This document shows, piece by piece, positions 37,081 through 38,289 of a DNA stretch of 64,000 bases. Numbering within the stretch: the first letter of the stretch is position 1; the number at the start of each line of letters is the position of its first letter. Origin of the DNA: Plantibacter flavus. GTDB lineage: Bacteria; Actinomycetota; Actinomycetes; Actinomycetales; Microbacteriaceae. A program made the translations under genes and the position numbers. The stretch lies in assembly GCF_900177615.1 (NCBI RefSeq), contig NZ_FXAP01000006.1, positions 248,001 through 312,000 of the forward strand. Reading direction: 5' to 3'. The notes under the pieces are model-generated. The model was not told the origin of the DNA and did not search any database. It saw nothing but the letters and a program-made list of their open reading frames with translations.

Positions 37081-37788
37081 TCAGAACAGGTCGGGCGACG
37101 GGGTGCTGGCGTAGCGGATGGAGACGTCCGCGTGGCGGTCGAAGCGGTAGCCGACGCCGCGCACGGTGCGGACGATGTCCTCGTAGCGGCCGAGCTTGGC
37201 GCGGAGGCGACGCACGTGGACGTCGATGGTCCGCTCGTTCGGGACCTCTTCGTCGTCGCCGGCGCGCCACAGGGAGGAGATGAGTTCGGCGCGCTCGATC
37301 GTGCGACCCTCGCGGAGGACGAGGTACTGGAGGAGCTCGAACTCCTTGTACGTGAGCGGCGCAGCCTCGTTGTCGAGGACGAGGCGCTTCCGGGAGATGT
37401 CGACGACGACACCGGCGTGGGCGCGGTCCTGCTCCTCCTCGTCGACCTCGTCGCGGTGGGCCGCGAGTGCCGACGGGTCCTGGAGGGCGAGCCGGACGAC
37501 GTCGAGGTCGCGTCCGCCGGCACCGCGAGGCGCGAGGGCGACGGCAGCGTGCGTCTCGGCCTCCGGAGCGAACTGGGCTGTCAGGGCCTTGATGGCCTCG
37601 ACGATCTCACCGAGGCTCGTGCCTGCGGCCGCCGCCTTCGCCTCGTCGAGGCCGACGTAGAGGACGAAGCCTCGGGCTTCGGGGCCGGCCGGAACGGCGC
37701 GGACGTGCGGGGTCGCGGCCCGAGGTGCGTCCTCGACGGCGGTGAGCTGGCGGGTGGGGCGGGTGGTCTGAACGGCTGCAAGAGACAT
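37081..37788 (-). CDS. Winged-helix (OmpR-type C-terminal) transcriptional regulator without receiver domain
   Basis: The 235-residue protein has an unusual N-terminal part (about 37-110; FVLYVGLDEAKAAAAGTSLGEIVEAIKAL) with no phosphoacceptor motif. A typical OmpR winged helix follows (about 125-222; LTYKEFELLQYLVLREG, RTIDVHVRRLRAKLGRYEDI, VRTVRGVGYRF). It therefore is not an ordinary two-component regulator and no kinase is nearby. It lies 236 bases downstream of a possibly leaderless Cys-rich leader peptide, which suggests control by cysteine supply and perhaps a role in sulfur metabolism. GAGG lies about ten bases before the ATG. Confidence 0.8.
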   Translation of the reverse strand: MSLAAVQTTRPTRQLTAVEDAPRAATPHVRAVPAGPEARGFVLYVGLDEAKAAAAGTSLGEIVEAIKALTAQFAPEAETHAAVALAPRGAGGRDLDVVRLALQDPSALAAHRDEVDEEEQDRAHAGVVVDISRKRLVLDNEAAPLTYKEFELLQYLVLREGRTIERAELISSLWRAGDDEEVPNERTIDVHVRRLRAKLGRYEDIVRTVRGVGYRFDRHADVSIRYASTPSPDLF

Positions 37789-38024
37789 GAGTGCGAGGTC
37801 CTCGGGAGTGATGATGCTACGACGGATCGTGCGCGATGCGCTCGGGGTGATCCCGCCTGCCGGTGGGCAGTTGCGGTCCCGCGATCCGGGAAGTGGCGCG
37901 TCGGCCGGGTACGGACGGGTACGTCCGGGAGTCGGCTCACCTGGTGGGGGAGCGGCGGACTCGGAGGTGCTGGGAGCAGTCGAGCGGATCCGTGTGGATC
38001 GCTACCGGTGCTGGAGGAGTCGGA
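37789..38024 (-). other. Probable untranslated leader between the Cys peptide and the regulator
   Basis: This 236-base stretch has no convincing ORF on the minus strand. It contains several short inverted repeats (GATCC/GGATC near 37988, CTGCC/GGCAG near 37858, GGAC/GTCC near 37915) that could take part in attenuation. Nothing else is recognisable. Confidence 0.4.
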
Positions 38025-38126
38025 TCAGCGACACATTCGACAGCACATGACAGCGCGGCCGGGCATCATCATGCCGGCGTTCCCAGGGGCCTCGAAGGAG
38101 GTCGGGGTGGGCGCGTTGGTCGTCAT
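38025..38126 (-). CDS. 33-residue Cys-rich leader peptide, probably leaderless
   Basis: The ORF reads MTTNAPTPTSFEAPGNAG and ends in MCCRMCR before TGA. Its ATG is about 8 bases downstream of a TTGTAT -10 that is paired with a perfect TTGACA -35 at 18-base spacing, so transcription should start at or next to the ATG. Three cysteine codons among the last six before the stop are the design of cysteine-responsive attenuator peptides known from mycobacteria. Stalling of ribosomes there under cysteine shortage would change expression of the winged-helix regulator downstream. That role is inference; promoter and peptide are visible directly. Confidence 0.6.
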   Translation of the reverse strand: MTTNAPTPTSFEAPGNAGMMMPGRAVMCCRMCR

Positions 38127-38134
38127 AGTCCGCA

Positions 38135-38164
38135 ATACAACAGGAATCCCCCGGATCCTGTCAA
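38135..38164 (-). promoter_or_regulatory. Consensus promoter for the Cys-rich leader peptide
   Basis: On the minus strand TTGACA (38164-38159) is followed after 18 bases by TTGTAT (38140-38135). It is the best -35 match I noticed in the window. The predicted start point coincides with the peptide ATG. Confidence 0.7.
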
Positions 38165-38223
38165 GTGCGAGCGGAAGATGACGTCGTGTTACTCGGGGAT
38201 TGCCAGCCGGCGGCACAACTGAG

Positions 38224-38272
38224 ATGAGGCGGATCGTCGTCCATCGCGGGGATGGACGACGATCCGCCTCAT
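38224..38272 (-). terminator. Perfect 22-bp hairpin after upp
   Basis: Bases 38224-38245 (ATGAGGCGGATCGTCGTCCA then TC) pair without mismatch with 38251-38272 around a 5-base loop. It lies 18 bases beyond the upp stop and upstream of the leader peptide promoter, so it insulates the two units. Confidence 0.8.
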
Positions 38273-38289
38273 GTCGGCGGGAGCAGGGG

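Follow-up and report, generated by a model that had tools for sequence, protein, structure and literature searches.

Leaderless polycysteine uORFs of mycobacteria are reportedly the subject of work by Canestrari et al. (2020). The uORF of whiB7/wblC senses translation inhibitors and is not known to carry a Cys codon signature, and Rv0485 is a transcriptional regulator of the ROK family located next to mshA. Cys leaders are already known in Actinobacteria (PMC1262725, PMC4633059), and the Canestrari 2020 work on them is cited in PMC9094748 and PMC13236596. The mycobacterial uORFs of Shell et al. (2015, PMC4633059) have a leaderless start, Cys codons beside the stop, conservation in relatives and a co-transcribed downstream gene, and the locus studied here resembles them in these respects, as far as promoter placement and sequence alone can indicate. 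The Cys leader peptides of the Mycobacterium and P. acnes cys operons and of Bifidobacterium cbs (Seliverstov et al. 2005, PMC1262725) likewise have Cys codons near the stop and no terminator hairpin; for these, Rho was suggested and polyY motifs were described in the spacer (PMC1262725). In the window (the whole stretch of 64,000 nucleotides analysed), the best reading of the locus is that a cysteine-responsive, perhaps also methionine-responsive, leader governs a sulfur-starvation regulator.

The leader ORF, its promoter and its conservation

The leader is a putatively leaderless ORF of 33 codons plus TGA on the minus strand (38025..38126), with its frame conserved across Microbacteriaceae. 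It encodes MTTNAPTPTSFEAPGNAGMMMPGRAVMCCRMCR followed by the stop, ends in MCCRMCR-stop and has a combined Cys and Met share of 24%. Its ATG (38126-38124, minus strand) was read from the sequence, as was a -35 box TTGACA (38159..38164, minus strand), for which the position of TTGAC in relatives is a further basis. The -10 box TTGTAT (38135..38140, minus strand) lies 18 nt from the -35 box and 8 nt from the ATG, and the transcript start expected from TTGACA-18-TTGTAT in the window sequence is the ATG itself. Of 106 non-redundant loci, 94 have TTGAC 35-38 nt 5' of the leader ATG, the spacing expected of a leaderless start, and -10 counterparts (TTTACT, GATAGT or TTGAAT) occurred at about the same place in relatives. 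The output of a generic sigma-70 scan did not include the leader promoter, because TTGTAT has no A at position 2; conservation supports the predicted promoter despite this miss. The upp gene (38922-38290) is located upstream of the leader, and a long near-perfect inverted repeat (38219-38277) that follows upp and precedes the leader promoter is probably the upp terminator. Since this repeat separates upp, the leader and the regulator look like a unit of their own, and the gene past the regulator is convergent. The region 5' of the leader promoter was also considered as the place of an operator through which the regulator might control itself; this was rejected, as the k-mers enriched in that region seem to stem from the last part of the upp coding sequence.

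Upstream of regulator orthologs in Microbacteriaceae, the same ORF recurred in the form MTDNA..LTSFEA.G.AGMMMPG.AVMCCRMC[RA]-stop. The pattern TGYTGYCGNATGTGYNNNTRR was present in 162 of 300 Microbacteriaceae genomes, about once per genome, with essentially no match for the reversed-pattern control. Nearly all pattern loci examined precede the orphan regulator gene; the exceptions are L141 and L190, and genome G172 has a second match (L190/L293) that reads as chance. The signature CGAATG-N6-stop was found upstream of the regulator in 190/196 loci, and on the opposite strand in 2/196. Genome-wide pattern counts and the strand control ruled out a chance origin of the leader, and a search for a known Rfam family gave spurious matches only.

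Codons were counted position by position. Among 116 non-redundant signature loci, a set whose signature itself demands CGA-ATG, 104 had Cys at the first tail position, 114 at the second and 107 at the third; the last 8 codons held three Cys in 94 loci and two in 17, and the tail held at least two in 113. The 61 leaders with a length of exactly 33 codons all had Cys at position 29, encoded by TGT in some and TGC in others; position 13 was Ala through four different codons, and the stop codon was TGA in 29, TAA in 23 and TAG in 9. By these sequence comparisons, the leader is under reading-frame (coding) selection. The Arg codon of the tail (38037-38039 in the window) was CGA in 135/135 loci when any Arg codon was permitted and the tail was required to read CRM, and CGA makes up about 10% of Arg codons. 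TGT, which makes up 13% of the Plantibacter Cys codons, stood at positions 28 and 29 in 49/54 and 49/61 leaders across the family. The leader prefers rare codons, and Cys sensing by itself does not account for the constancy of CGA.

Many loci were collected with patterns that include the tail, and less bias is expected in those located solely by their regulator; most of the latter that missed the strict pattern had a related tail (RCRMCR, PCRMCR, CCRMSA, CCRMHA or LCRMCA). The N-terminal half, the length and the number of Cys codons varied among loci. Small-genome outliers gained Cys codons, with MCACRMCCCC-stop in L029 and MCMCMCMCR-stop in L198, and therefore Cys codons appear to be retained as the remainder of the leader decays in reduced genomes. 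L030, with a single-Cys leader ending RRRMCR-stop, is a counter-example, and no recognisable leader was found upstream of the regulator orthologs L192 and L194. In a second family of the order, three loci carried a GTG-start leader ending RCCRM[CH]A-stop, with CGA kept, and a regulator homolog of about 48-52% identity.

Other genes in the data also had leaders of this kind. A leaderless-looking short ORF, MRLRLSCSCCPR and a stop, lies about 95 nt upstream of Plantibacter cbs, the cystathionine beta-synthase gene (L238 in G000:C3, and L239-L244), and in another family a leader MATSERTVEMMMTAPTCCRTCR with its stop lies upstream of cysK (L277/L295 in G038), resembling the window leader in MMM followed by CCR-x-CR. 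These leaders have metabolic targets and support the reading of the tail as a cysteine sensor. The only motif common to the regions before cysK and cbs was a -10-like TAGGCT, which was discarded as a candidate.

The original prediction had described a promoter of this form that should start transcription at the ATG of an ORF of 33 codons with the end MCCRMCR-stop, and 236 nt between that ORF and a winged-helix regulator lacking a receiver domain. Both statements agree with the sequence, the Pfam search giving PF00486 only, and the conservation check that it proposed was run and showed that the frame, Cys codons and stop of the leader are kept before regulator orthologs. From the proposed cysteine switch on a transcription factor, the conserved leaderless-type Cys-codon uORF before an orphan wHTH regulator stood; the cysteine response itself we infer, as we do its direction, the part of Rho and the targets.

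The sulfur-poor regulator and its candidate targets

The orphan winged-helix regulator (37081..37788, minus strand) has 235 aa, with no Cys and no internal Met. PF00486 (Trans_reg_C) was its only Pfam match, and no receiver domain was found; the N-terminal half had no Pfam match and no PDB match outside the wHTH, and its predicted structure was of low confidence. A Shine-Dalgarno sequence GAGGA precedes the gene (37799..37803, minus strand), with AAGGA at the same place in relatives. Plantibacter sp. VKM Ac-1784 has exactly the same protein, which places the window in a Plantibacter genome, and orthologs were present in nearly all Microbacteriaceae sampled.

To place the sulfur content of the regulator, we compared it with neighbouring genes and with GlnR. 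GlnR has an atypical receiver domain, and the GlnR paralog in these genomes is the proper control. Of 117 non-redundant regulators, 107 had neither Cys nor internal Met, and the whole set of 25,094 residues held 15 Cys and Met; for upp, tadA and proC of these loci the Cys plus Met content was 1.7-3.9%. GlnR paralogs, some of which have over-long starts, had about 1.2%, and 1 of 20 was sulfur-free. The signal belongs partly to the wHTH fold, since the wHTH half of GlnR is also poor in Cys and Met (0.2%), but most of it lies outside that half; the difference from GlnR stays large (Fisher 4e-15, shared ancestry ignored). The near absence of Cys and Met from the regulator lends independent, though indirect, support to a presumed sulfur role.

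The proposal that the regulator controls sulfur assimilation was kept in part. A sulfur role gained support from the Cys- and Met-poor protein, but control of sulfate reduction did not: no PF01507 (PAPS reductase/CysD) was found in the window genome, and the family occurred in only 1 of 16 Microbacteriaceae genomes searched. A single NIR_SIR match, in a long frame beside a siroheme-type gene, is read as NirB nitrite reductase. With PF01507 absent and the NIR_SIR match assigned to nitrite reduction, sulfate reduction cannot be what the regulator controls in the window genome. Representative Microbacteriaceae lack the sulfur assimilation pathway, and a Pontimonas strain required Met and Cys in culture (PMC6106888). 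The genes cysK, cysE and cbs were present. Acquisition of organic or reduced sulfur would be the possible target.

Motif searches, including one of an 800-kb Plantibacter sample, found no target promoter or regulon of the regulator; metNIQ and SfnB-type clusters, cbs and cysK-cysE would be its first candidate targets. The same sample contained sulfur-free or sulfur-poor SfnB/DszC, NtaA/DmoA and MetQ-type proteins in two neighbouring clusters (L312 2308-20000; G004 322-341 kb). Encoded there are SfnB/DszC-like oxidoreductases that lack both Cys and Met, a monooxygenase of the NtaA/DmoA kind, and MetN/MetI together with a MetQ that is free of sulfur; the MetQ of the organosulfur cluster in the window genome lies at G000:C8:113408. 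By their composition, these clusters show that Plantibacter spares sulfur in genes that probably serve sulfur scavenging, and no shared site linking them to the regulator was found. Separately, a TGTTACG box was observed before metQ in 12 of 33 upstream regions, against 0.12 expected (L342, L343, L347, L355, L357, L359, L363-L365, L367, L368 and L373), and in many of them another GT-rich half follows at a distance of roughly one helical turn. The box could belong to GlnR or to the orphan regulator. It was not assigned to the regulator: the enrichment is real, but GlnR is present and the 800-kb scan gave no convincing sulfur-cluster match.

Spacer, RNA pairing and candidate mechanisms

Between leader and regulator lies a 236-nt spacer (37789..38024, minus strand) that is C-rich, G-poor and rut-like, as judged by its C over G excess and its missing terminator. 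C minus G was 0.199 at the window locus and averaged 0.174 (sd 0.034) in the family, compared with 0.012 (sd 0.068) in 142 other intergenic regions used as controls, and C exceeded G in the spacer of 105/105 loci. No intrinsic terminator, that is, a G+C hairpin with a T run, was found on the minus strand of 37789-38024, and intrinsic-terminator attenuation was ruled out for this reason. A C-rich, G-poor untranslated stretch is the classical look of a Rho-loading region. Because the spacer has this look, its composition and the missing terminator suggest Rho-dependent attenuation as the first choice of mechanism. C-richness could also merely keep the spacer unstructured, and a paused ribosome can increase or decrease Rho action, depending on geometry.

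We consider it slightly favoured, at a probability of about 0.55, that an amino-acid-sensing leader controls the transcription factor, with Rho-type early termination and a sulfur-sparing regulator as the output. RNA polymerase would start at the ATG, and ribosomes would load straight onto the leaderless ORF. With charged tRNA-Cys, and possibly Met-tRNA, abundant, the leader would be read through and the ribosome would leave at the stop, baring the long C-rich, G-poor untranslated spacer; Rho would then most likely end transcription early, and little regulator would be made. With cysteine scarce, the ribosome would pause by the stop on the proposed sensing codons TGC TGT CGA ATG TGT (Cys28 Cys29 Arg30 Met31 Cys32; 38031..38045, minus strand), chosen for their conserved Cys and CGA, and the spacer would be masked or refolded, allowing more transcripts to extend into the regulator gene. 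Synthesis of the regulator needs almost no Cys or Met and might be possible exactly during the shortage, and the regulator would probably tune how reduced and organic sulfur is taken up or used. That a shortage of cysteine would raise, and not lower, the amount of regulator is presumed from the behaviour of known amino-acid leaders and from the lack of sulfur in the protein.

The same RNA also offers pairings through which the leader might act on translation, as in mycobacteria. The segment ATGATGATG, formed by the Met19-21 codons (38064..38072, minus strand), has two possible partners: it may form helix P4 with CATCATCA, close to the SD of the regulator, or join a local hairpin P2, GCCGGCAU-GAUG-AUGCCCGGC (38058..38078, minus strand), the two being mutually exclusive; the GCATCATCA element 5' of the SD (37809..37817, minus strand) is the partner of ATGATGATG. 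Across loci, 97.8% of P2 cells were paired, and 2 cells were double-changed. In this alternative, which we regard as doubtful though the most serious, the position of the leader ribosome picks P2 or the long-range P4, AUGAUGAUG with CAUCAUCA beside the Shine-Dalgarno sequence, and thereby sets regulator translation without early termination. Complementarity of at least 8 bases between ATGATGATG and CATCATCA was found in 37 of 105 loci, where shuffled sequence expects 1.3, and own pairs were better than swapped pairs (P = 0.012), but swapped pairs already yielded 29.5 of the 37, so both elements may be conserved for other reasons. L134 has GATGCTG in the leader against CAGCATC at the RBS, a compensating change, and L180 likewise has a GATGCTG match, yet covariation for P4 is thin overall and the helix is limited to part of the family. 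The folding model makes a P4/P2 switch plausible, as a ribosome on the Cys codons covers the P2 3' arm and P4 rises from 0.27 to 0.43; modelled SD accessibility, in contrast, was nearly constant across ribosome positions (0.52, 0.53 and 0.55). Sequestration of the RBS was rejected, folding under ribosome masks having no effect on the SD, as was pairing of the Cys-codon region with the spacer or RBS, in which own pairs were no better than swapped ones. Translational control would also leave the C-rich spacer unexplained.

Other explanations place the signal in the peptide. Arrest of the nascent chain, with SFEA-G-AGMMM...CCRMC stalling in the exit tunnel and slow CGA helping, would respond to something other than Cys-tRNA, such as redox state, Arg, Met or an inhibitor. 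It would suit the conserved amino acids before the Cys codons with their varied third positions, an Arg30-Met31 pair more constant than any Cys, the invariance of CGA, and L030, which retains CGA-ATG-TGT with Arg replacing two Cys. L198 and L029, however, lose most of the peptide and retain Cys/Met-rich tails, the tail has two or more Cys in nearly all signature loci (113/116), and RNA hairpins can account for parts of the upstream peptide; we therefore hold arrest to be clearly improbable. Far less credible still is a Cys/Met-rich small peptide that works in trans, perhaps by binding thiols or metals, with its place before the regulator secondary. Its 24% Cys plus Met and strongly conserved tail would fit such a role, but the ORF occurs about once per genome and almost without exception in cis to this one regulator, its N-terminal half, length and Cys number are variable, and the leaders of cbs and cysK have only the tail in common with it.

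Leader and regulator may form a self-consistent sulfur-starvation circuit, in which the leader, with 24% Met and Cys codons, acts as sensor, the sulfur-shedding transcription factor is the output, and acquisition of organic or reduced sulfur is under family-wide control in bacteria mostly unable to reduce sulfate. We put this wider claim forward tentatively, at a little under even odds. The regulator would be a candidate master regulator with its own sensor in most genomes examined, and amino-acid leaders would extend from enzymes to a regulator as target. The sulfur-free protein offers an independent sequence-level sign of the condition of use, and the idea can be tested directly in easily grown strains, Plantibacter or Leifsonia among them.

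Relation to described systems

No description of sulfur regulation in Microbacteriaceae, or of this pairing for Microbacteriaceae or for a sulfur-free regulator, was found in the literature searched, which included few subscription papers. The earlier statement that no description of the pairing exists was not quite right, as a conserved Cys-rich leaderless uORF lies upstream of Rv0485/Msmeg_0932 (Shell et al. 2015, PMC4633059, Fig 7B). This is the nearest precedent, placing a Cys-rich leaderless uORF before a regulator. The two cases differ in regulator family (ROK for Rv0485) and in setting, with mshA as the neighbour there and a single-gene unit here. The attenuation of whiB7/wblC (cited in PMC13236596) offers a parallel as a uORF controlling a transcription factor in Actinobacteria. 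GlnR (PDB 8hml, 8hig and 8hih) is the closest solved winged-helix domain by sequence and fold, but is a separate paralog in the same genomes and is not sulfur-free.

The leaders of Seliverstov et al. (PMC1262725) have biosynthetic targets and polyY motifs that are not conserved, in contrast to the uniform C-over-G excess in Microbacteriaceae. The described mycobacterial polycysteine uORFs lie mostly before Cys-metabolic operons (cysA2, nirA), whereas the Microbacteriaceae leader has a lone transcription factor as its target, is also Met-rich and always uses CGA as its Arg codon.
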